In this document: piece by piece, positions 20,762-60,091 of the stretch | Layout of the letters: every line of letters begins with the position of its first letter | How positions within the stretch are numbered: the stretch's first letter is position 1 | DNA from: Methanomicrobiales archaeon | Lineage (GTDB): Archaea > Halobacteriota > Methanomicrobia > Methanomicrobiales > JACTUA01 | Length of the DNA stretch: 64,000 nt | Direction of reading: 5' to 3' | Assembly: GCA_030019205.1 (NCBI GenBank) | Contig: JASEFH010000002.1 | Coordinates: forward strand, 124,001-188,000 | Position numbers and translations under genes: made by a program | Notes under the pieces: generated by a model | Seen by the model: the letters and a program-made list of their open reading frames with translations, nothing else | Told to the model about the DNA's origin: nothing | Databases searched by the model: none

Positions 20762-20968
20762 ATGCAGCGGTCTATCATGGAGTATCCTCCTCGGGATCAT
20801 ACGTCCCTGCTGCACGCGGGGGTCAGGGAGGATGCATCCTCCCCGGTGTCCACCTGTCCGAACTGCGGCAATGCGACTCACCGCCTGATCACCATCCAGT
20901 GGAAGGCGGATGGCGGGCATGCGACGTGCTGGGCATGCCGGTGGCGATGGGATATCCCGAGGCGGTAA
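20762..20968 (+). CDS. Small zinc-ribbon protein
   Basis: The last 36 codons read STCPNCGNATHRLITIQWKA then GGHATCWACRWRWDIPRR, giving two CxxC knuckles (CPNC and CWAC) about 20 residues apart, a zinc-ribbon layout. The start is uncertain: ATG 20762 gives 68 residues, and ATG 20777 is an alternative; upstream in-frame sequence looks non-coding. The Trp-rich ending CWACRWRW is unusual. Function is unknown; nucleic-acid or protein binding is only an inference. Confidence 0.5.
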   Translation: MQRSIMEYPPRDHTSLLHAGVREDASSPVSTCPNCGNATHRLITIQWKADGGHATCWACRWRWDIPRR

Positions 20969-22388
20969 TGCGGCGCTCGCAACCGGAGCGGAGCTCTGGC
21001 GCCGCACTGCAGGCAGGGACGATCCCACAGACGATGATGCAAACCCGGTAGCGGCTGGCGCATCGCCCCTGCGGGGCGCACCTTCTTCTGCCCCCTTCGA
21101 CAGGGATCGTCCGCCCCGCAGGGAGCGGATATCCCGGCGGCGATCCTGCGAGCGTTCGTCCGTCGTTTCCGACCTCTGTATGGCGCAGCATGGCCGGACC
21201 GATCTCCCTGGACCTCACGGGCAAGCGAATGCGAGGCCTGCTCCCCCTGCGGGAGGATCGAGAGGGCGATTCTCCCCTCCCGGGCAGGAGATCGCCGGCA
21301 TCTCCACCGGGTTCTTCGCACTTCGAGAGACCGCCCGCCCGTGCGGGTCGAAGCCGACCGGGCCGTCGGCTGCTTCGAACGCCCGCAAAAAACCGCGTAG
21401 TAGAGTTTAGGCTCGATATGGCAGCAGCGGAGTAGAGGTTAAATTTCTCAGCGGATCTGCCCGATGGACGGCAGCGGTGGAGACCTGCTCTGGCGGTTCC
21501 GGGATATACCGGCTCCGCAGAGGTCCGGCAGATGTTTCGGGACTGCCGGAACCAGGAACTATCCGAAGGGAGCAGCCTGCCCGCCGGGGGCCGCTGCTCG
21601 TGGCTACGGAGGCCTGCCGGCGATTCTGCCCGGAGGTTCCGCGGCGCGGATTCTCGCGCTGCAGGAGACGGCAGAGCGGCCATTTCTCGAAGCCGCAGCC
21701 GCAGAGAAAGGGCGCATGAACTCCGCTCTCTTCCCCGAAGATCCCGTTCGCTGTCTGCTTTCAGGTGGCGAAGCGGAGCGCAGTGCGGGACAGTGGGGGA
21801 GATCGCCGTGCGGCCTATCTCTCTGGAGGCATGGGCTGCACAGCATGGCGTGGCAAGCAGGTATTCGCGACGCTCGCACCGGCGGATTCTGCAGCGACAC
21901 CCGGAAGAGTCGTCCGGGCGATCGGGATCCCCGGTCCAGTATTCAGAGAACCCTCATCGCCATGGCGGGTCCGTTAGGGTCCGCTCGTCTGCCGCGCGCG
22001 GCAGCCCTGCGATGGGAAGAACGAACGCCTGCTGTTCCTCGGAGAGGGCGATGTGGCCCTCACCACGCGAATGCTCCAGGGCTCCTGCCAACCTCCGCCG
22101 GTTCCTCCGGTATGCGTGCCGTGACCCTCCACAGAGGTTCTCCCGGCGCAGGCTGACGAGGCACCCCCCGGTCCGTCCGGTGGAACAGGCGGATGCCGGA
22201 ATCCCTCCTCCCTCCACGGAGGATCGCGGATACCCGAGCTCCCGAAGGGAGAACCGCTCGAATCTTCCATCTCCTGCCCGAAGAGGCAGTTCCACCCGAT
22301 GGCGGATCTCTGCAGATCAGCTCCTCCGTCAGTCGGAAACGAACCGGGCCCGGGATTATAAAGACGTTAATAATGCGGAATCCAAGGG
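20969..22388. other. Gene-poor region, no supported gene
   Basis: About 1.4 kb with many overlapping open frames on both strands, all Arg/Pro/Gly/Ser-rich and without domains. I see no RNA gene. A TATA box near the right end (ATTATAAAG, 22355-22363) drives the next gene. Confidence 0.5.
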
Positions 22389-45947: not shown

Positions 45948-46439
45948 ATGAAAAAATACAGCAGAGAAGATCAGAGACGGATGGCGGCATGGGCTGCAGA
46001 CTGCGCCGAACGGGTACTTCCGTTATTCGAGGAGGCGTATCCGCAGGACGACCGGCCACGCCGTGCCCTCGAAGCATGCCGGACATGGGTCCGCACGGGC
46101 GTGTTTATAATGGGTGAGATACGTGAAGCTTCCCGTGCCGCCCATGCCGCCGCCCGCGAAGCGAAGGAGAATCATGCGGCCAGTTTTGCTGCGCGTGCTG
46201 CAGGCCAAGCGGTGGCGACTGCGCATGTCACCCAGCACGCCTTCGGCGGTGCTTACTATGCCCTGAAAGCCGTTGCAGCAACCAACCCCGGTGATGCTGA
46301 GGTTGCAGTTGACAGGGAGCGCGATTGGCAATCGCGGCATCTTCCAGAAGATCTAAGGCAGGAATTTCTCGCCAGGGCGATCATTCAAAAACGCCCCGAC
46401 GGAATTTTCATCAAGATTGAAAAGGACGGGGATTTTTAA
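45948..46439 (+). CDS. Imm-5-like putative immunity protein
   Basis: The 163-residue all-helical, Ala-rich protein reads AAWAADCAERVLPLFEEAYP, then DRPRRALEACRTWVRTG, ASRAAHAAAREAKENHAAS and ARAAGQAVATAHVTQHAFGG. This order (RRALEA, AAHAAAR, AAGQAVATAHV) matches the Imm-5-like domain of polymorphic-toxin immunity proteins. No toxin gene is adjacent, and the family also occurs alone. Function here is unproven. Confidence 0.72.
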   Translation: MKKYSREDQRRMAAWAADCAERVLPLFEEAYPQDDRPRRALEACRTWVRTGVFIMGEIREASRAAHAAAREAKENHAASFAARAAGQAVATAHVTQHAFGGAYYALKAVAATNPGDAEVAVDRERDWQSRHLPEDLRQEFLARAIIQKRPDGIFIKIEKDGDF

Positions 46440-50284: not shown

Positions 50285-50913
50285 GCGTTGTTACGAGGTG
50301 CTTTCCGCAGCCGCCTGCTGTCCCTGGCCGCCGGGGACTCCGTGGCATACGTCTTTGTCCGCCGGGCAGGTATTGGCGGGAGAGGTATTCGAGAGTGCGC
50401 TCGCCTTGCCGGATCACCACATCTGCCTCATCTCCCTCGTCGGGCTGGTCACGTTCTACGGTCTGGAGAAGGTGGTGCAGCCCGGGAGATCGGGAGGAAC
50501 GGAGCGGGATGTGCATGCAGGCGTCTCCTGGGTGCACAGCGCATCCTTTACCTTCTGCAACACCCATAGCGGCTACCTGCCGGTGCATCGGGTGGACCCG
50601 TGACCCCTCAGCCTGGCGTTCTTCTCCGTCGCGGGCTGCACTTTTTCGTGAACGATTATGCTCTCCGATAGGCTCACCGCGATCCCTACGAGCAGACCGG
50701 GCAGTGGATCCTGGCCATCGCCCTGATGTGCGGATGGACGATCGGGACCCTGACCCGGGTCCCGGAGATCTCATCGCCGTGCTTACGGCCTTCCTGGTGG
50801 GCGGCATCATCCCGAACACGCTCAAGGAGGAGCTGCCCGAAGGGCGCGAGAGCCGGTTCATACCCTTCCTCCCGGGAGCGCTGATCTACGCCGTTTTGCT
50901 ACTGGTCGTATAG
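50285..50913 (+). pseudogene. Decayed paralogue of the 40.7-kb membrane protein
   Basis: Fragments in shifting plus-strand frames match the gene at 40698-41435 in order: LLSLAAGDSVAYVFVR (SLAGGVSVAYIFVR), LISLVGLVTFYGLEKVV (IALLGLLVFYGLERVV), a NDYALR-type remnant, QTGQWILAIALMCGWTIGTL (RTGRWILVGALVFGWTVGIL) and LIAVLTAFLVGGIIPNTLKE (LIAVLAAFLAGGVILNVLKE). Several frameshifts separate them. The last piece is open to the stop at 50913. Confidence 0.8.
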
Positions 50914-51089
50914 GCCGCATGCAGGATCCGGACATAGAGCGTTCGAAGGCGAAGATACCCCGGTGCCCCCGCACGGTTCGTCCCGGGGCAACCATCGCCG
51001 CTGCTCACCTCCATCGAGCGGACAGGCCGAGGGGACAGATTTTTATGGTGTCGCCGCACGGAAGAACCCATCATAGGAGAGTGCGACGG

Positions 51090-52064
51090 TTGGGAGCGAG
51101 GACGGCGGGCATCGGCTACCATGCATCCCATGAGCAGTTCCCTCCCGGGCGGCTGCTCGATCTGACCCGCGCGGCAGAGTCGGCCGGGTTCGAAACCGCC
51201 ATGGCATCCGATCACTTCAAGCCCTGGAGCGAGAGCCAGGGGGAGAGCGGCTTTGTTTGGTCGTGGCTCGGAGCCGCGCTGCAGGCCACACGGTTCCCCC
51301 TGGGCGTTGTGACCGTTCCGGGGTACCGCTACCACCCGGCGATACTTGCCCAGGCGGGGGCCACCCTGGCCGAGATGTTCCCCGGGCGGTTCTGGATGGC
51401 GGTCGGGAGCGGCGAGCAGCTGAACGAGAGCATCACGGGCGAGCGGTGGCCGACCGGAACGGAGCGTGATGAACGGCTCCTCCGCTGCGTGCAGGTGATG
51501 CGGGCCCTCTGGGCCGGAGAGACGGTGACATCAAAGGGATTGGTTCGTGTGGAAAGTGCGCGGCTCTACACCCTCCCCCGCCAGCCGCCGCTTCTCCTGG
51601 CAGCGGCGACCTCCAGAAAGACGGCGGAATGGGCAGGCGGCTGGGCGGACGGTCTGATCACTGTTGGCGGACCGAACTCGGATATCGAGGGGACGATCGA
51701 GGCATTCCGCGAGGGAGGAGGCGAAGGCAGCTCCGTCTACCTGAAAGCGGACATCTCGTATGCGCGGACCGAGCAGGAGGCGCTGGAGGGCGCCTGGGAC
51801 CAGTGGCGCTACCTCGTGCACGGCGGGAACACCATCGTCAACACCCGGAGCCCGGCGCTGTTCGAGGCCTTCTCCCGGCATGTGCGGCCCGGAGATATGC
51901 CCAATCACCTGTGGATCTCGTCGTCTCTGGAAAGATACACCGAATGGCTGCGGGAATGCCTCGCGCTCGGCATCGACCGGATCATCCTCCACAACGTGAA
52001 CCGCGAACAGGGAGCCTTCATCGAGGACTTCGGCCGCGAGGTGATCCCGGCTCTGCACGCGTGA
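51090..52064 (+). CDS. LLM-class flavin-dependent oxidoreductase, copy 1
   Basis: The protein of about 324 residues is a luciferase-like TIM barrel. GIGYHASHEQFPPGRLLDLT is followed by AMASDHFKPWSESQGESGFV, WLGAALQATRFPLGVVTVPG, EMFPGRFWMAVGSGE and ADGLITVGG. It resembles TIGR03885, LLM proteins close to F420-dependent enzymes; whether F420 or FMN is used is not decidable by eye. I place the start at TTG 51090, 10 nt after an AGGAG (51075-51079), which aligns with the paralogue's start; GTG 51081 is an alternative. It is followed 9 nt later by GH15 copy 1. Confidence 0.85.
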   Translation: MGARTAGIGYHASHEQFPPGRLLDLTRAAESAGFETAMASDHFKPWSESQGESGFVWSWLGAALQATRFPLGVVTVPGYRYHPAILAQAGATLAEMFPGRFWMAVGSGEQLNESITGERWPTGTERDERLLRCVQVMRALWAGETVTSKGLVRVESARLYTLPRQPPLLLAAATSRKTAEWAGGWADGLITVGGPNSDIEGTIEAFREGGGEGSSVYLKADISYARTEQEALEGAWDQWRYLVHGGNTIVNTRSPALFEAFSRHVRPGDMPNHLWISSSLERYTEWLRECLALGIDRIILHNVNREQGAFIEDFGREVIPALHA

Positions 52065-52073
52065 GGTACCGTC

Positions 52074-54053
52074 ATGGTCCGTGCACGGGACTACAAGCCG
52101 ATCTCGGCATACGGGGCGATCGGGAACATGCGCACTGCTGCCCTCGTCGGGCGGGACGGCTCCATCGACTGGTGCTGCCTCCCCCGCTTCGACAGCCCGA
52201 GCGTCTTTGCCGCGCTCCTGGATGCGCAACGGGGCGGACGGTTCCGCGTCTCGGCGGAGGCAGCCGGCATGGGCGAGCAGCAGTACGTCGATGGGACGAA
52301 CGTGCTGAAAACGAGGTTCAGCGGCCCGGAAGGAGTTCTGGCGGTGACCGACCTGATGCCGCTCGCCGGCGATCTGCGTCAGCCCGGCACGTCCAGCACC
52401 CGCCCGGAGATCCACCGCATCCTGGAGTGCGAGGACGGTGAGGTGCTCGTGGACGTGGAGTGGTCCCCTCGGTTCGACTACGGCCGCATTCTCCCCCGCA
52501 TCCGAACGGCAGGGAGAGGCTGGTTCGCCTCCGGGGGCAACCAGGGATTATCGCTCTCGCCGCTGGAGGAGGGCAGGCTCCGGGACGAAGGCCGCGGTTA
52601 TATCCTGCGTGCGCGGTTTCGGATGGAGAGTGGGGATAGACGCGCTCTCGTTGTCCGCTGGAACACGGAGGAGACCGAATACACCCTCCGGGAGGCGGAC
52701 GAGACCCTGCAGCAGACCGCCGCGGCCTGGCGGGCATGGGCATTCACGACGAGCGATGCGGCTGGCTGGGCCGGGAGCTATCATCCCCTCCTCCTCCGCT
52801 CCAAACTGGTACTCAAACTGCTCGATCACGCAGAATCGGGTGCCATCGTGGCCGCGCCGACAACCTCCCTGCCGGAGGCGATCGGGGGACGGAAGAACTG
52901 GGACTACCGCTACGCCTGGATCCGGGACGCCTCGCTGACGGCACAGGCCCTCATCCCGCTCGGGCACGGGGAGGAGGCGGTGTCGTTCCTGGCCTGGATG
53001 GAGGAGGTCGAAAGGCTGCACGCGGATGCGGCGCTCTTTCCCCAGCCGCTGTATGCCGTCGACGGGCAGGAGGCTCCGGAACAGGTCGAGCTGCCCCACC
53101 TCGAGGGCTACCGCGGTTCGAGGCCGGTGCGCATCGGCGGGGTATCCCGGGGTCAGCTTCAGCTGGATGTCTTCTTCTACCTCCTGGATGCCGCCCTCGC
53201 ACTCTCCCGAATGGGCCGCCCGCACGGTCCGGACACCATGGGTTTCCTCCAGAGGATGGCGAACCGCATCGGCGACCTCTGGAGAGAGCCGGACCATGGG
53301 ATCTGGGAGTGCAGGGGCAGGCCACGCCACTTCGTGCACTCCAAGGTCATGGCATGGGCGGGCCTCGACAGGGCAATTGCCCTTTTCGAACTGACCGGGG
53401 CGGAGGGAGACGCGGATCGGTGGAGGCGGGAGCGGGAGAACGTGCGGAGGGATGTCCTGGCGAACGGCTACGACGAGGAACTGGGATCATTCGTCCTCTA
53501 CTACGGATCGAAGGGCCTCGACGCCGCCAACCTCCGCATTCCCATCCTCGGGTTTCTCCCTGCAAAGGACTGCCGGGTGCAGGGGACGATCGGGAGGACC
53601 CTGGAGAGGCTCACCCGGAACGGGTTCGTACATCGCTACTGCACCGATGCGGGTCTTCCGAAGGGGAATGGCAGCATGCACGAAGGTGCATTCGTCCTCT
53701 GCACCTTCTGGCTGGCGGATGCGCTCTTGCTCTCGGGGCGGCTTCGGGAGGCCCGGGGCATACTGGAGAACGTCGCCCGATCGGCAAACCACGTCGGCCT
53801 CTTCGGCGAGATGGTAGACCCGGCCGATCGAAGCATCCTTGGCAACTTTCCCCAGGGATTCAGCCATCTCGGTCTGATCACCTGTCTCCTGTATCTTGCC
53901 TGCGCCGAGGGGAGGGAGATTCAGGGGTTTGCTCCGGCGCACCGGCTGCGTCGGGAGCGGCCAGGAGTGGCAGCAACCCGTCGGGTGCCGGAGGGCAATC
54001 CGTCCGATCAGCCTCCATCCGCACGGAAGAGCCGGCGGAACGGGCGTGCCTGA
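52074..54053 (+). CDS. Glycoside hydrolase family 15 protein, copy 1
   Basis: The 659-residue protein has an N-terminal beta domain (GRDGSIDWCCLPRFDSPSVF, residues about 25-45) and a GH15 (alpha/alpha)6 barrel with RKNWDYRYAWIRDASLTAQA. The candidate catalytic acids are in EPDHGIWECRGRPRHFVHSK and in GLFGEMVDP. GH15 enzymes release glucose from starch-like polymers or split trehalose. The copy has a 35-residue basic C-terminal tail and lacks the YGE of the other copy. Substrate is unknown. No signal peptide, so it is cytoplasmic. Confidence 0.9.
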   Translation: MVRARDYKPISAYGAIGNMRTAALVGRDGSIDWCCLPRFDSPSVFAALLDAQRGGRFRVSAEAAGMGEQQYVDGTNVLKTRFSGPEGVLAVTDLMPLAGDLRQPGTSSTRPEIHRILECEDGEVLVDVEWSPRFDYGRILPRIRTAGRGWFASGGNQGLSLSPLEEGRLRDEGRGYILRARFRMESGDRRALVVRWNTEETEYTLREADETLQQTAAAWRAWAFTTSDAAGWAGSYHPLLLRSKLVLKLLDHAESGAIVAAPTTSLPEAIGGRKNWDYRYAWIRDASLTAQALIPLGHGEEAVSFLAWMEEVERLHADAALFPQPLYAVDGQEAPEQVELPHLEGYRGSRPVRIGGVSRGQLQLDVFFYLLDAALALSRMGRPHGPDTMGFLQRMANRIGDLWREPDHGIWECRGRPRHFVHSKVMAWAGLDRAIALFELTGAEGDADRWRRERENVRRDVLANGYDEELGSFVLYYGSKGLDAANLRIPILGFLPAKDCRVQGTIGRTLERLTRNGFVHRYCTDAGLPKGNGSMHEGAFVLCTFWLADALLLSGRLREARGILENVARSANHVGLFGEMVDPADRSILGNFPQGFSHLGLITCLLYLACAEGREIQGFAPAHRLRRERPGVAATRRVPEGNPSDQPPSARKSRRNGRA

Positions 54054-54209
54054 AGGGTCGCGCATTCGCGCGGCAGCCGCGGAATACCGTGCATACCTGC
54101 GGCGAATCCCAAAATGGCGGAGCTGCCGGTCCCGCCCTCACCCCCACTCCCCAAGGCTTGAGGTGCCGGCTCGGGGCGATCGCCGGCACATCCGGATCGC
54201 ACGGGAGAG

Positions 54210-54268
54210 AAACATTATTATGCGTTCTCTCTATGGAGTCCTGCCGTAGCGTTTGAATGCACGGAGGA
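54210..54268 (+). promoter_or_regulatory. Promoter and ribosome-binding site of the second LLM-GH15 module
   Basis: AACATTATTATGCG at 54210-54223 is a TATA candidate, and GGAGG at 54264-54268 precedes ATG 54276. The second module therefore has its own promoter. Confidence 0.5.
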
Positions 54269-54275
54269 GGACAGG

Positions 54276-55283
54276 ATGGACAGGCTTGAAATTGGCTATC
54301 ACGCCTCTCACGAGCAGTTTTCTCCAAGTTCCCTGCTGGAGCTGGTGCAGCTGGCAGAGGCTGCCGGTTTCCAGGCGGTAACCTCGTCCGACCACTTCTA
54401 CCCCTGGAGCGAGAGCCAGGGGCAGAGCGGGTATGCCTGGTCCTGGCTCGGGGCGGCGATGCAGGCGACGGCGATCCCCTTCGGGGTGGTGACGGCGCCG
54501 GGATACCGCTACCACCCGGCCATCGTGGCGCAGGGAGCTGCAACGCTCGCGGAGATGTTCCCCGATCGGTTCTGGCTCGCCCTCGGGAGCGGCCAGCTGA
54601 TGAACGAGGGGATCACCGGCACCCGATGGCCTCCCAAAGCGGAGAGGAACGAGCGGCTGCTGGAGTGTGCGGAGATCATCCGCAGGCTGTGGGCCGGAGA
54701 GACGGTCACGCACCACGGCCTTGTCAGCGTCGAGTTGGCACGGCTCTATACCCGACCGGAGACGCCGCCGCTGCTGTTCGGCGCGGCGATCACCCCGCAG
54801 ACGGCGGAGTGGGTGGGGGGCTGGGCGGACGGGCTGATCACCACCAGTCGTCCTCCGGAGGATCTGAAAGAGGTGGTAGACGCGTTCCGCCGGGGCGGCG
54901 GCGGCGGGAAGCCGATGTACCTGAAGGTGGACGTCTCCTATGCAGCGGACGAGGCGGATGCCCTCCGCGGGGCATGGGAGCAGTGGCGTTACAACGCCTT
55001 CCCGAGCTCGGTGAACACCGGCATCCGCCTGCCGGAGATGTTCGATGCGGCGTCCCGGTTCGTCCGACCGGAGGACATGCGCGAGAGCGTGCGCATCTCT
55101 TCGGATCCGGAGCAGCACATCGCGTGGCTGCGGGAAGATGCGAGGCTCGGGTTCGAGCGGCTCTTCATCCACAACGTGAACACCGGGCAGAGGGAGTTCG
55201 TCGAGTTCTACGGCTCGGAAGTCCTTCCCGCCCTGATCGGCAAGGAGGCTTCGCATGCCGCCGCAGTATCAACCGATCGCTGA
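54276..55283 (+). CDS. LLM-class flavin-dependent oxidoreductase, copy 2
   Basis: The 335-residue paralogue of the gene at 51090 keeps the motifs EIGYHASHEQFSPSSLLELV, TSSDHFYPWSESQGQSGYAW, VVTAPGYRYHPAIVAQGAAT and MFPDRFWLALGSGQLMNEGI. It has the same length and the same following gene. It overlaps GH15 copy 2 by 29 bp, so the two are translationally coupled. Cofactor is unknown (F420 or FMN); the methanogen background makes F420 possible. Confidence 0.88.
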   Translation: MDRLEIGYHASHEQFSPSSLLELVQLAEAAGFQAVTSSDHFYPWSESQGQSGYAWSWLGAAMQATAIPFGVVTAPGYRYHPAIVAQGAATLAEMFPDRFWLALGSGQLMNEGITGTRWPPKAERNERLLECAEIIRRLWAGETVTHHGLVSVELARLYTRPETPPLLFGAAITPQTAEWVGGWADGLITTSRPPEDLKEVVDAFRRGGGGGKPMYLKVDVSYAADEADALRGAWEQWRYNAFPSSVNTGIRLPEMFDAASRFVRPEDMRESVRISSDPEQHIAWLREDARLGFERLFIHNVNTGQREFVEFYGSEVLPALIGKEASHAAAVSTDR

Positions 55284-57216
55284 TTATGCCGCTATCGGGA
55301 ACCTCCGCACCGTCGCGCTGGTGAGCCGGTACGGTTCGATCGACTGGTGCTGTTTCCCCCACCTGGACCGCCCCAGCGTATTCGCGGCCATCCTCGACGC
55401 CAACCGCGGCGGTCGGTTTCGAATCGGAGCCGCCGGAGCCGATAGGGGGGAGCAGCGCTATCTCGGCGACACGAATGTGCTGGAGACCCGCATTCAGACG
55501 GGTACAGGTCTGCTCACGCTGACCGACTTCATGCCGCTCCGGGGGCGCATCCACGGTACCGGGAACTCGCACGGGGGCGAACGCTCCATCGCCCCCTCGG
55601 AGATCCACCGCATCCTCGAGTGTTCCCAAGGAGCGGTCACGGTGGAGGTCGAGTGGTCCCCGCGGTTCGATTACGCCCGGGCCCCGACACGGATCGAGCC
55701 TGCCGGGGAGGGATGGGTGGCGGCGAGCGATGCGGGGATCCTGGCCCTCGGGGGAGCTGTTGATGCGGTTGTCTCGGACGGGGAATTCGGGCCCTTCCTT
55801 CAGGCGCGGTTCCCGATGCACGACGGCGAGAGGCGGGTGCTGGTCACGCGCTGGGGCACGCGGGACGTTTCGTTCGACCCGGTATCGTCCGTGGATCTGC
55901 TGCAGCGGACCGCCGCGGCCTGGAAGAACTGGGCGCACCAGGAAGGTGCGCTGCACTCGGAGGCATGGGCCGGCGGCTGGCTCCCGATGCTCATCCGCTC
56001 GGAGCTCGCCCTCAAGCTCCTGACGCACGCCGAGAGCGGGGCCATCGCCGCCGCCCCGACCACGTCTCTGCCGGAAGGCATCGGCGGGGTGCGGAACTGG
56101 GATTACCGCTACGCCTGGATCCGGGATGCCTCGCTGACGGCGCAGGCGTTCATCGCCCTCGGTCACCGCGAAGAGGCGATCGAGTTCTTGAACTGGATCG
56201 TGCGGGTCTCCGAGCAGCACTTCGAGCAGGGGGAGGCGCTGCAGATCATGTACGGCGTCCACGGGGAGGCTGATCTGGACGAGCTGGAGCTGGATCACCT
56301 TGACGGCTACCGGGGTTCCAGGCCGGTGCGGATCGGGAATGGGGCGGCAAAACAGAATCAGCACGAGGTGTACGGGGAACTGCTCGTTACGGGCTATGAA
56401 CTCCTCCGGCGGGGGGAGACGCTAAATCCTGAGATCCTGACCTTCCTCGGCTGGATCGCCGACCACGTGTGCGCCGTCTGGAAAGAGCCGGACCATGGGA
56501 TCTGGGAGGTCCGCGGCGAACCGCGCCACTACGTCTATTCCAAGCTGATGAGCTGGGTCGCCCTCGACTACGCCGTGCATCTCGCCGAACGATTCGGGCT
56601 GCAGGGGGATGTCGGGCGGTGGAGGCGGAACCGGGATGCGATCCGTGACGACATCCTCGAGAAGGGCTACGATCCCGACCTGCGGTCGTTTGTCATGGCC
56701 TACGGTTCAAAAGAACTCGACGCTGCCAACCTGCGGATGCCGATGTTCGAGTTCCTCCCCTTCGAAGACGAACGCGTGCGGGGGACGGTCGATGCGACGA
56801 TGGAGCACCTGATGGAGAACGGGCTGTTGTACCGCCATAACGCAGAGGACGATCTCCCGGGAGAGGAGGGGACGTTCGCGCTCTGCACCCTGTGGCTCGT
56901 GGATGTGCTGGCGCTCTCCGGGAGGCATGCAGAGGCGCTGGAGATCTACGAGAACATGCTCGGGCATGCGAATCACGCGGGGCTCTTTGCAGAACAGATC
57001 GATGCTGAAACGGGAGAGTTCCTCGGCAACTTCCCCCAGGCCTTCACGCACATCGGCATCATCAACAGCGCCCTCTACCTCGCCTATGCCGGGGGGAGGG
57101 ATGTTCCAGGGCACGCCCCCATCGGCACTCCCGATCACCGAAGAACGCTGGGCCGCGCCCATGCGGCTTACCATCAGGCTGCAGTAGAGACTTCGGCCGA
57201 CGGGAGACAGAGGTAG
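55255..57216 (+). CDS. Glycoside hydrolase family 15 protein, copy 2
   Basis: The 653-residue GH15 protein is paralogous to the gene at 52074. It has SRYGSIDWCCFPHLDRPSVF, VRNWDYRYAWIRDASLTAQA, QIMYGVHGEADLDELELDHL, GYRGSRPVRIGNGAAKQNQH, EPDHGIWEVRGEPRHYVYSK and GLFAEQIDAETGEFLGNFPQ. It is closer to the family consensus than copy 1 and both catalytic carboxylates are in place. It probably acts on an alpha-glucan or trehalose in the cytoplasm. It is followed 1 nt later by the Nramp-like gene. Confidence 0.92.
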   Translation: MPPQYQPIADYAAIGNLRTVALVSRYGSIDWCCFPHLDRPSVFAAILDANRGGRFRIGAAGADRGEQRYLGDTNVLETRIQTGTGLLTLTDFMPLRGRIHGTGNSHGGERSIAPSEIHRILECSQGAVTVEVEWSPRFDYARAPTRIEPAGEGWVAASDAGILALGGAVDAVVSDGEFGPFLQARFPMHDGERRVLVTRWGTRDVSFDPVSSVDLLQRTAAAWKNWAHQEGALHSEAWAGGWLPMLIRSELALKLLTHAESGAIAAAPTTSLPEGIGGVRNWDYRYAWIRDASLTAQAFIALGHREEAIEFLNWIVRVSEQHFEQGEALQIMYGVHGEADLDELELDHLDGYRGSRPVRIGNGAAKQNQHEVYGELLVTGYELLRRGETLNPEILTFLGWIADHVCAVWKEPDHGIWEVRGEPRHYVYSKLMSWVALDYAVHLAERFGLQGDVGRWRRNRDAIRDDILEKGYDPDLRSFVMAYGSKELDAANLRMPMFEFLPFEDERVRGTVDATMEHLMENGLLYRHNAEDDLPGEEGTFALCTLWLVDVLALSGRHAEALEIYENMLGHANHAGLFAEQIDAETGEFLGNFPQAFTHIGIINSALYLAYAGGRDVPGHAPIGTPDHRRTLGRAHAAYHQAAVETSADGRQR

Positions 57217-57217
57217 A

Positions 57218-58642
57218 ATGCCTGGAGCACCAGGGCCTCCAGGGGAGAGAGAGATCGCGGCACCCCCTCCACGGGGGTGGGAACTCCTGCAGTGGGTGGG
57301 GCCGGGGATCATCTGGATGATCTCTGCCATCGCGACGGGAGAACTCCTGTTCACGCCGAGGATCGCCTCGCTCTATGGTTACACAGTGCTCTGGACCCTG
57401 ATCCTGGCGATCTTCCTCAAGGCGCTTCTGGCCCGCGAGATCGGGAGATATGCGGTGGTCACGGGAGGTTCTCTCCTCCAGGGTATCCGGAAGCTGCCGG
57501 GACCTGTCAACTGGGGAGTATGGCTGATCGTCCTGCCGCAGCTCTTCGTCGCCGTCACCACGATCGTCGGCATGGCCGGTGCGGCGAGTTCGGCGATCAT
57601 CCTCGCGGTGCCCGGCGGCTTCACCTTCTGGGCGATCGTGTCCCTGCTGATCTCCATCGCCCTGGTATTCTTCGGGAGGTACCGGGGCGTGGAGCGGGCC
57701 TCCATCGGGATGGCGCTCGTCATCATCGTGGCTCTGGTTATCACCGCCGGGGTTGTATTCACGGGGGCGGCCCCCCTGGCAGCGGGGCTGGTGCCGGCGC
57801 TTCCCCCGGATGTCGACTTCACCGAGGTCCTCCCCTGGATCGGGTTCATGATGTCCGGCGCCGCCGGCCTGATCTGGTACTCCTACTGGCTCACGGCCCG
57901 GGGATACGGTGCTGCGCATTACACCATCGGCAGCCGGAGAGGGACCCTGGAAGAGCCCGAGGAGGCGGTGCCGGTCATCGAGGAGGGCGAGAGCGTCGAC
58001 ATCTCCGCTCTTCCCCGCGAACAGCAGCAGCGCCTCAGGGGGTGGATCCGGATCATGACCGTCTCGACCACCATCGCGTCATCGATTGTCCTCGTTCTCC
58101 TCATCTCCCTGCTGATCCTGGGAGCCGAGCTGCTCCGTCCGCAGGGTCTCCTTCCCCAGGGGCCGGAGGTGACGGCGGTTCTCTCGGTGCTCCTCGGGGA
58201 TGTCTGGGGACCGGCAGGAGCGTGGCTGATGATCCTCGCCGCATTCTTCGCGTTCTGGAGCACGCTCGTTGCAAACCTGGACGGCTGGACGCGGATGCTC
58301 GGGCAGGGATCGATCTTCATCGCCCGCCAGTACCGGGCGGCGGGAAGATGGGTCTCGATGGGATTCTACCGCTGCGTTTACCTGTTCGGTCTCATGGGGG
58401 CGATTCCCATCGTCCTGATCTTCTTCATACCGGAGCCGGTGACGTTCCTGATCATGGCCGGCATCGTCGAAGCCATCCACATACCCGTGGTCGCGTTCGC
58501 GACTCTATACCTCAACTGGAGCACCCTCCCCGAGGAGTTCCGGCCCTCAGCGCCGGTCGCACTCCTCACTCTCGTCGTGGGGATCTTCTTCTCGGGCTTT
58601 GCCCTGTACTACTTCTCTGTCGAGTCGGCGGCACTGCTGTAA
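57218..58642 (+). CDS. Nramp-family-related membrane transporter
   Basis: The 474-residue protein has about eleven helices. WVGPGIIWMISAIATGELLF in helix 1 and GFMMSGAAGLIWYSYWLTAR in helix 6 lie where Nramp metal transporters have the DPGN and MPH motifs; those residues are missing, so ordinary divalent-metal binding is doubtful. Similar divergent Nramp-related proteins include magnesium and aluminium transporters. A soluble insert (about residues 245-275) separates helices. It starts 1 nt after GH15 copy 2 and may be cotranscribed with it. Confidence 0.8.
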   Translation: MPGAPGPPGEREIAAPPPRGWELLQWVGPGIIWMISAIATGELLFTPRIASLYGYTVLWTLILAIFLKALLAREIGRYAVVTGGSLLQGIRKLPGPVNWGVWLIVLPQLFVAVTTIVGMAGAASSAIILAVPGGFTFWAIVSLLISIALVFFGRYRGVERASIGMALVIIVALVITAGVVFTGAAPLAAGLVPALPPDVDFTEVLPWIGFMMSGAAGLIWYSYWLTARGYGAAHYTIGSRRGTLEEPEEAVPVIEEGESVDISALPREQQQRLRGWIRIMTVSTTIASSIVLVLLISLLILGAELLRPQGLLPQGPEVTAVLSVLLGDVWGPAGAWLMILAAFFAFWSTLVANLDGWTRMLGQGSIFIARQYRAAGRWVSMGFYRCVYLFGLMGAIPIVLIFFIPEPVTFLIMAGIVEAIHIPVVAFATLYLNWSTLPEEFRPSAPVALLTLVVGIFFSGFALYYFSVESAALL

Positions 58643-58795
58643 CGGGCAGGCCCGACGGTGGCGGGGTCGCCGCTGGTTCGAGCGGATCGTCTGCCGCCCG
58701 TCTCCGGGAAACGCCGCATCGGTAAGCGGGCGCCAGAATACCAGGAGCCTTACGGAATGGTTATTTATACGAACAGACCCAGGTGCTGGAGAGAG

Positions 58796-60091
58796 ATGGC
58801 CCGGGAGAGATGGTCGAGCGGAATCGGATTCATCCTCGCCAGCATCGGCTCTGCCGTGGGGATAGGGAACATCTGGAGGTTCCCCTACATCGTGGGGACG
58901 AACGGCGGCGGGGCGTTCCTGGTCCCCTACCTGATCTCCGTCTTCCTCTTCGGCCTGCCCCTCATGCTGCTCGAGTTCGCCGTCGGGCGAAACCTGCAGA
59001 CCTCGGTCGGCCCGGCCTTCCGGGCCATCAGGAGGAGGTTCTTCCCCGCGGGCATCGCCATCATCGCCATCCTCGGCCTGATCCTGAGTTACTACCTGGT
59101 GATCACCAGCTGGGTCCTTGCCTACGCGCTCTTCTTTCTGATCCAGCGGCCGGTGGACTTCGGTGACTTCACCGCCTCCTACTACCCCCTCGTCTTCTTC
59201 CTGGCTTCCGCCCTTGTCGTGTTTGCCACGGTGCGGTCCGGGGTCCAGGAGGGGATCGAGCGGATCTCGCGGTTCATCATCCCGCTCCTCTTCCTGCTCC
59301 TCCTGCTCCTCGTCGCCTTCTCCCTCGCCCAGCCGGGCGCTCCCGCAGGCATATCGTTCTACCTCACGCCGGATCTCGCATACCTCTCCGATCCGCTCGT
59401 CTGGGCGGCCGCCTTCGGGCAGGCGTTCTTCTCCCTCTCCGTGGGGATGGGCATCCTGCTCACCTACGGGAGCTACCTGGAGCGGGAGAACCTGTTCCGG
59501 AGTGCAACGATCATCGTTGTCGCCGATATCCTGATCGCGATCCTGGCGGGGCTCATGATCTTTCCCCTGGTCTTCACCTACAACCTGGATCCGGCCGCCG
59601 GGGTGAACCTGGCGTTCGTCACCCTGCCCGCGGTCTTCGGGGAGATCCAGTTCGGAGCGCTTCTCGGGGCGCTCTTCTTCTTGATGCTCTTCCTTGCTGC
59701 ACTCACTTCCGCGGTCTCCATGCTCGAGGTTCCGGTGGCAACTGTCATCGACTCGTACGGGATGCCCCGAAAGAAGGCGACCCTTCTTGTCTGCGCCATC
59801 ATCCTCCTGCTCGGGCTCCCGTCCGCCCTCAGTTACACGGCCCTGCGGCTGGAACTCTTCGGGGTTCCCTTCCTGGACATCTCCGACTACGCCTTCGGGA
59901 CGCTCGGGCTCATCGTCGCAGGGCTGATCGTGAGCATCGTCGCGGGCTGGTTCTTCGAGCCGGCGCGGCTTTTCGAGGAGCTGGGGGGGAGCGCGAGCCT
60001 GCAGCGGGTTTACCTGATCCTGGTCCGCTACTGCATTCCGTCCGTTCTGCTCGTCACCCTGATCGCCAGGCTCTCCGGGATCACTGCGTAA
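58796..60091 (+). CDS. Sodium:neurotransmitter symporter family (SNF) transporter
   Basis: The 431-residue protein has eleven or twelve helices with the SNF/NSS signature SAVGIGNIWRFPYIVGTNGG in helix 1 and NGGGAFLVPYLISVFLFGLP next to it. Helix 6 has AFGQAFFSLSVGMGILLTYG. Prokaryotic members are sodium-coupled amino-acid importers. ATG 58796 follows a TATA word (TTATTTATAC, 58764-58773) by about 25 nt, so it has its own promoter despite following the Nramp-like gene. Confidence 0.92.
   Translation: MARERWSSGIGFILASIGSAVGIGNIWRFPYIVGTNGGGAFLVPYLISVFLFGLPLMLLEFAVGRNLQTSVGPAFRAIRRRFFPAGIAIIAILGLILSYYLVITSWVLAYALFFLIQRPVDFGDFTASYYPLVFFLASALVVFATVRSGVQEGIERISRFIIPLLFLLLLLLVAFSLAQPGAPAGISFYLTPDLAYLSDPLVWAAAFGQAFFSLSVGMGILLTYGSYLERENLFRSATIIVVADILIAILAGLMIFPLVFTYNLDPAAGVNLAFVTLPAVFGEIQFGALLGALFFLMLFLAALTSAVSMLEVPVATVIDSYGMPRKKATLLVCAIILLLGLPSALSYTALRLELFGVPFLDISDYAFGTLGLIVAGLIVSIVAGWFFEPARLFEELGGSASLQRVYLILVRYCIPSVLLVTLIARLSGITA

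Follow-up and report, generated by a model that had tools for sequence, protein, structure and literature searches.

A paired LLM-class oxidoreductase and GH15 glycosidase module in a Methanomicrobiales archaeon and its possible link to trehalose use

Introduction

The closest described relatives of the enzymes considered here are a sugar dehydrogenase and a group of glycosidases. In F420-dependent glucose-6-phosphate dehydrogenase (Fgd), Glu109 protonates F420 at N1, and phosphate is bound by two Lys and one Arg, as described in PMC11448927. Hydrolases of family GH15, to which the archaeal trehalases TreH1 and TreH2 belong, release β-D-glucose (PMC12446779). The NCBIfam family TIGR03885, named flavin mononucleotide (FMN)-dependent LLM class oxidoreductase, is a hypothetical equivalog without an assigned reaction, and the FMN in its name is a prediction. 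Here we describe two adjacent pairs of genes, each consisting of an Fgd-like LLM-class oxidoreductase gene and a GH15 gene, in a 64,000-nucleotide stretch of DNA from a Methanomicrobiales archaeon (the window, which is part of contig C2 in a 2.73-Mb genome, G000).

An initial annotation of the window had taken the conserved pairing as a sign that the oxidoreductase and the glycosidase act in one pathway. An adjacency search revealed the pairing in 11 of the 12 genomes of the order that carry this LLM and at 8 of 80 loci in a broader set, and this recurrence points to a single sugar pathway. We tentatively propose, at somewhat less than even confidence, that the genes form a cytoplasmic trehalose-catabolic module, in which GH15 would free glucose and the LLM enzymes would oxidize the free glucose to a lactone.

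Results

The module consists of four intact open reading frames on the forward strand at positions 51090–57216, namely LLM1 (51090–52064), GH15_1 (52074–54053), LLM2 (54276–55283), and GH15_2 (55255–57216). LLM1 and GH15_1 are separated by 9 bp and LLM2 and GH15_2 overlap by 29 bp, in agreement with the initial description of two adjacent and tightly linked units. In a survey of 232 genomes of the order, an LLM was counted at an identity of at least 57%, the next group of matches reaching at most 41%. Such an LLM was present in 12 genomes, and GH15 directly followed it in 11 of them, starting 10–31 bp past the matched LLM; in the window, LLM2 and GH15_2 overlap. The exception is G073, in which GH15 is located on a different contig from LLM. 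The order LLM-LLM-GH15 was observed in five genomes, and in a sixth (G069) the second LLM is cut by the contig end. Among the loci seen, a GH15 gene behind each LLM was found only in the window. No third close copy of LLM or GH15 was detected in the window's own genome, where the remaining LLM matches are weak. The best of them (45% identity over 165 residues) is on contig C22, and a distant LLM paralogue that matches in two separate stretches is located at positions 20824–21518 of this contig (L172).

The broader search with LLM2 as a query found 103 loci, 80 of which were kept; they cover 11 phyla. Neighbors were counted by tblastn with reference enzymes chosen from the neighbors themselves. 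GH15 adjoins LLM at eight loci, five from Methanobacteriota, two from Actinomycetota, and one from Trueperaceae (Deinococcota). The five Methanobacteriota loci include one with a C-terminal GH15 piece (Methanoperedens) and one with the two genes in divergent orientation (a haloarchaeon); three of the five (L057, L064, and L067) also belong to the genomes of the order surveyed above. In the Methanoperedens locus (L045, 7001–8745), LLM is followed by residues 393–640 of GH15 only, as if the gene had been truncated. At 34 more loci, a gene no farther than 600 bp from LLM encodes a TreS-like GH13 enzyme (23 loci in five phyla), TreZ or TreY (six loci), a glycogen-debranching-type enzyme (GDE; three loci), a GH63-like enzyme (one locus), or a GH39-glucoamylase-like enzyme (one locus). 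In total, GH15 or another trehalose or α-glucan enzyme is next to LLM at 42 of the 80 loci, a count that is partly circular because the reference enzymes came from the neighbors. The recurrence of GH15 and TreS-like enzymes over the phyla does not depend on single reference picks. As a control, 2.5–4 kb stretches around an LLM paralogue of 38–41% identity were inspected in genomes of the order, and none of 18 loci showed such a neighbor, whereas 10 of 11 equally short stretches of the present LLM did. At a Pelagerythrobacter locus (L086, 4143–7999), LLM is flanked directly upstream by a gene for a membrane pyrroloquinoline quinone (PQQ) glucose dehydrogenase and on its opposite flank by one for a TreS-like GH13. 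A search of the open literature found nothing that joins GH15 to LLM oxidoreductases and nothing on TIGR03885 or an E109Q form of Fgd; no role for LLM in TreS or TreY-TreZ clusters was found in the literature examined.

LLM1 and LLM2 share 188 of 315 residues (60%), and both exceed the curated whole-protein cut-off of TIGR03885 (456.6 and 512 bits, respectively, against 398.7). The best match of LLM1 in the PDB is 9hav, the Fgd of Thermomicrobium roseum (E 3.2e-74). The AlphaFold2 model of LLM2 (predicted local distance difference test (pLDDT) score 86) gave as its best Foldseek match 9haw, also T. roseum Fgd, with E 7e-32, a template modeling score of 0.87, and 42% identity; it also matched 9hav, an entry titled 'with glucose'. 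The equivalents of Fgd His40 and Trp44 are present in all 99 aligned rows. At the Glu109 position, 72 rows have Gln and 27 have Glu, and the alignments place Glu in LLM1 and Gln in LLM2, which are hence called E-type and Q-type. The Arg of the phosphate pocket that is common to the glucose 6-phosphate enzymes 9hav, 3b4y, and 5lxe is replaced by Ser in LLM2 and by His in LLM1, with the His read from the multiple alignment. The positions that we presume to be those of the phosphate-binding Lys residues were not used. Since the Arg is missing from both enzymes, glucose 6-phosphate is an unlikely substrate as judged from the alignment. The LLM scores of 142 and 144.3 bits are below the Fgd equivalog cut-off of 420 bits, and on both grounds we rejected the assignment of the enzymes as glucose-6-phosphate dehydrogenases.

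The adjacency could also be explained by shared regulation only, if LLM were a stress oxidoreductase (e.g., for carbonyl detoxification) that is co-induced with the turnover of trehalose when cells face osmotic stress or desiccation, and that does not act on the sugar itself. Consistent with this account, the partner of LLM differs by phylum (TreS-like, TreZ/TreY, GH15, or GDE), some partners make trehalose instead of breaking it, and ion transporters are among the neighbors in the window. This account nevertheless appears somewhat unlikely, because the nearest fold relative of LLM, a sugar dehydrogenase, has a structure with glucose, the GH15 gene is so close to LLM or overlaps with it in all but one of the 12 genomes, and the PQQ enzyme directly upstream of LLM in L086 is a glucose dehydrogenase.

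GH15_1 and GH15_2 are identical at 325 of 623 positions (52%) and both have a TREH_N and a GH15 region. GH15_1, the divergent copy, matched PF00723 with E 9e-60 and PF19291 with E 1.7e-19, and GH15_2 with E 3.4e-69 and 7.2e-17, respectively; the PF00723 scores of 203 and 234 bits far exceed the gathering score of 22. Two putative catalytic residues, E418 and E580 in GH15_2 numbering, are invariant in 20 rows including GH15_1, and from their motifs we take them to be the acid and the base. TreH1 and TreH2 were the best NCBIfam matches of both proteins, at 377/314 and 355/307 bits against cut-offs of 820/1000, and both proteins are assigned as inverting α-glucosidases and probable trehalases. 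GH15_1 departs from its relatives at 4 of 72 columns that are invariant in 19 of them (E337Q, N356G, A358S, and G368F), and the four departures cluster at ~337–368; GH15_2 departs at 0 of 68 and other rows at 0–4 such columns. The initial remark that copy 1 had lost family residues is thus true of GH15_1, which retains both putative catalytic Glu residues. No signal peptide was noticed by eye at the N-termini, with no signal-peptide prediction computed, and for this reason we assume a cytoplasmic location of the enzymes. A second GH15 locus, which lacks LLM, is present elsewhere in the order (L157–L163) and encodes a protein with 58–61% identity to GH15_2; its neighbors in most genomes are a P-type ATPase (best matches to Ca-type models, below cut-off), a small cupin, and a β-propeller protein.

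The window's own genome encodes a fused trehalose-phosphate synthase/phosphatase (NF011071, 1055 bits; cut-off 634) and, beside it, a TreT homologue (PF21269; E 2.8e-102 to PDB TreT 2x6q), and from these genes the organism is predicted to be able to make trehalose. GT20 was over the cut-off in 46 of the 232 genomes of the order, which include every one of the 12 that carry this LLM and 26 of the 29 that have a GH15 match (Fisher p 1e-9 for LLM and 8e-19 for GH15, with relatedness not corrected for). Within the window's own family, G000 has GT20, LLM, and GH15, and ten other genomes searched have none of them over the cut-off. As for GT5 glycogen synthase, nothing convincing was found in the window's own genome (a weak, partial PF08323 match of 37.8 bits), GT3-type and other enzymes not being sought. 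With the best PF08323 match in the order also weak, at 53 bits, a GT5-type glycogen synthase was rejected as a source of the substrate.

It could be argued that the GH15 enzymes are glucoamylases acting on stored or scavenged α-glucan or maltodextrin, and that LLM oxidizes the released glucose or maltose. The AlphaFold2 model of GH15_2 (pLDDT 86) had a bacterial glucoamylase, 1lf6, as its best Foldseek match (E 1.9e-17) and also matched dextran dextrinase and glucodextranase. When PDB sequences were searched with the GH15 profile, most matches were noise from pentatricopeptide repeats, but isomaltose glucohydrolase and dextran dextrinase were also among them. The glucoamylase account is favored by this fold match, by the GDE, GH63-like, and GH39-glucoamylase-like neighbors of LLM in other phyla, and by the failure of both GH15 proteins to reach the TreH cut-offs. 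We regard it as unlikely, because the best family matches are nonetheless TreH1 and TreH2, and because every genome with the module has GT20 while the window's own genome has no convincing glycogen synthase. The initial annotation had also suggested an oxidized or modified sugar; this found no support, and trehalose or an α-glucan yielding glucose fits better.

The DNA of the two units is in register, with a spacing of 3180–3199 bp and 70–77% identity in six repeat families, far above chance. In an LLM tree of 41 rows including the outgroup, LLM1 was separated from LLM2 and grouped (support 98/97) with six LLM genes that adjoin GH15 in genomes of two other families of the order. In these six genomes, the two LLM genes are neighbors and precede a single GH15. 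A clade of LLM1 and LLM2 was 9.5 log units worse and was narrowly rejected by the approximately unbiased (AU) test (p 0.048). The Glu109 position agrees with this division: Glu is present in LLM1 and all six of its tree partners, and Gln in LLM2, the other full-length LLM of doubled operons, and five single-LLM genomes. The tree and this mark together indicate that E-type and Q-type LLM predate the lineage split or were passed together. As read from the tree, LLM1 and LLM2 are old paralogues that were kept together, not fresh copies. The tandem duplication of the whole module proposed initially was accordingly rejected for the LLM half; for the GH15 half, whose branching is poorly resolved, a single clade of the pair was not rejected (AU p 0.374). 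That the two-gene unit was duplicated locally and recently, either to raise dosage or with copy 1 now in decay, is quite improbable despite the register of the units, the tolerated GH15 clade, and the long branch of GH15_1 (0.84 against 0.40), given the grouping of LLM1 with E-type genes of other genomes, the narrow rejection of the LLM clade, the intact open reading frames, and the retained catalytic residues.

The two transporter genes that had been noted to come next were assigned as an Nramp-like transporter (57218–58642, forward strand; NF037982, 123 bits) and an SNF-type Na+-dependent symporter (58658–60091, forward strand; NF037979, 112 bits; PF00209, 1.5e-63), both over the cut-off of 50 bits. 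The Nramp-like gene starts 1 bp after GH15_2 and is followed by SNF after 15 bp, and a spacer of 222 bp (54054–54275) separates GH15_1 from LLM2. Because of this spacing, two transcription units are suggested, LLM1-GH15_1 and LLM2-GH15_2-Nramp-SNF. An AT-rich stretch seen by eye near 54210–54222 in the spacer could be a candidate archaeal promoter of the second unit; a scan that did not cover archaeal promoters found no bacterial-type promoters or terminators in the spacer region. The TTG start of LLM1 at 51090 is plausible, since AGGAG is located ~10 nt upstream as seen by eye; GTG at 51081 is an alternative start. An Nramp-like gene with 71–78% identity adjoins the module at 9 of 11 loci in other genomes, the two misses being near contig ends. 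Its position is 3′ of the module in both L146 and the window but 5′ in the other eight. No homologue of the SNF gene was found at any of 27 related loci. In Methanoculleus-like genomes (L149, L151, L154, and others), two genes come after the module: one is serpin-like as judged by eye, and the other encodes a TrmB-family protein (PF01978) that might regulate the module in response to sugar.

Elsewhere in the window, positions 45948–46439 encode an Imm5-like putative immunity protein (PF21805). A tRNA-Ser(AGA) called by ARAGORN at 50903–50996 is probably false, as no Rfam tRNA match was found in the window. A defense role of the module was rejected, since PADLOC gave no match except one weak oxidoreductase match (E 2.2e-4).

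Discussion

In the proposed trehalose-catabolic module, GH15 would hydrolyze trehalose, and perhaps maltose or short α-glucans, and as an inverting enzyme would set free β-D-glucose. This free glucose would sit in LLM in the way that glucose 6-phosphate sits in Fgd, and the hydride at C1 would be moved to the cofactor of LLM, yielding glucono-1,5-lactone. LLM1, with the catalytic Glu of Fgd, probably uses F420, which would bring the electrons into the F420H2 pool of the methanogen. LLM2, with Gln, perhaps uses a flavin such as FMN, or may serve a related step. To go by the title of one paper in the reference list of PMC8498797, F420-dependent glucose-6-phosphate dehydrogenase itself is reportedly absent from methanogenic archaea.

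Several observations weigh against this proposal. At 38 of the 80 loci no trehalose or α-glucan enzyme is next to LLM, though some of these loci end near LLM. The link with GT20 is clustered, mostly in one family, and 34 genomes with GT20 have no LLM. The TreH1 and TreH2 scores of the GH15 proteins are far under the cut-offs, and the trehalase assignment therefore falls short of proof. Of 77 genomes that carry this LLM (28 plus 49 genomes, several of them draft or metagenome assemblies, with L087, L058, L064, and L067 left out), only 8, the window's own among them, had CofD, which is needed for F420, at a score over the cut-off. It follows that F420 is not a general requirement of the LLM family, since most hosts apparently cannot make it, and that another cofactor must serve in hosts lacking CofD; NCBIfam's guess is FMN. 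Glu at the 109 position was commoner with CofD, being found at 5 of 7 CofD-bearing and 12 of 69 CofD-less loci (Fisher p 0.005). When relatedness was considered, this association was not significant (2.2 for and 0.3 against among 3 independent pairs), and the three to five independent pairs at hand are too few to decide the question. A clean rule, by which Glu means F420 and Gln means FMN, was hence rejected. Finally, the F420 sugar dehydrogenases characterized to date use free glucose very inefficiently (KM >500 mM; PMC6279831). LLM would thus need a different pocket, and the loss of the Arg is a hint in this direction.

A bolder version of the proposal, which we consider quite unlikely as a whole, is that the locus carries out sugar-driven reduction of F420 by a trehalase, an F420-dependent free-glucose dehydrogenase (LLM1), and a flavin-using LLM2, which could even be the partner subunit of LLM1, by analogy with LuxAB-type luciferase. 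A stress solute would then serve as a reserve of reducing power, and TIGR03885 would broadly consist of sugar dehydrogenases linked to trehalose or α-glucans, with F420 or FMN as the cofactor depending on the host. The main proposal gives TIGR03885, an LLM family found in 11 phyla among the 80 loci, a function that can be tested, and suggests that methanogens may reduce F420 with electrons from a sugar; the Glu/Gln pair of paralogues is a natural experiment on the preference for F420 or FMN in LLM enzymes.

Compared with Fgd from T. roseum (9HAV–9HAY) and Mycobacterium tuberculosis (FGD1, 3B4Y), the LLM enzymes share the fold, the His40 and Trp44 equivalents, and, in LLM1, the Glu109 equivalent, but differ in the score below the cut-off, the replaced Arg, the Gln at position 109 of LLM2, and the glycosidase partner. 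Unlike the FMN label of TIGR03885, the present pair occurs in a genome with CofD, and LLM1 keeps the F420-type acid. The GH15 enzymes share the TREH_N and GH15 regions and the two motif Glu residues with the archaeal trehalases TreH1 and TreH2, glucoamylase, and isomaltose glucohydrolase; they differ from TreH1 and TreH2 in their scores below the cut-offs, in the oxidoreductase partner, and in the alteration of GH15_1 around 337–369. In the bacterial TreS and TreY-TreZ trehalose clusters, the same LLM family adjoins the trehalose enzyme genes, with GH13 as the partner there and GH15 here.

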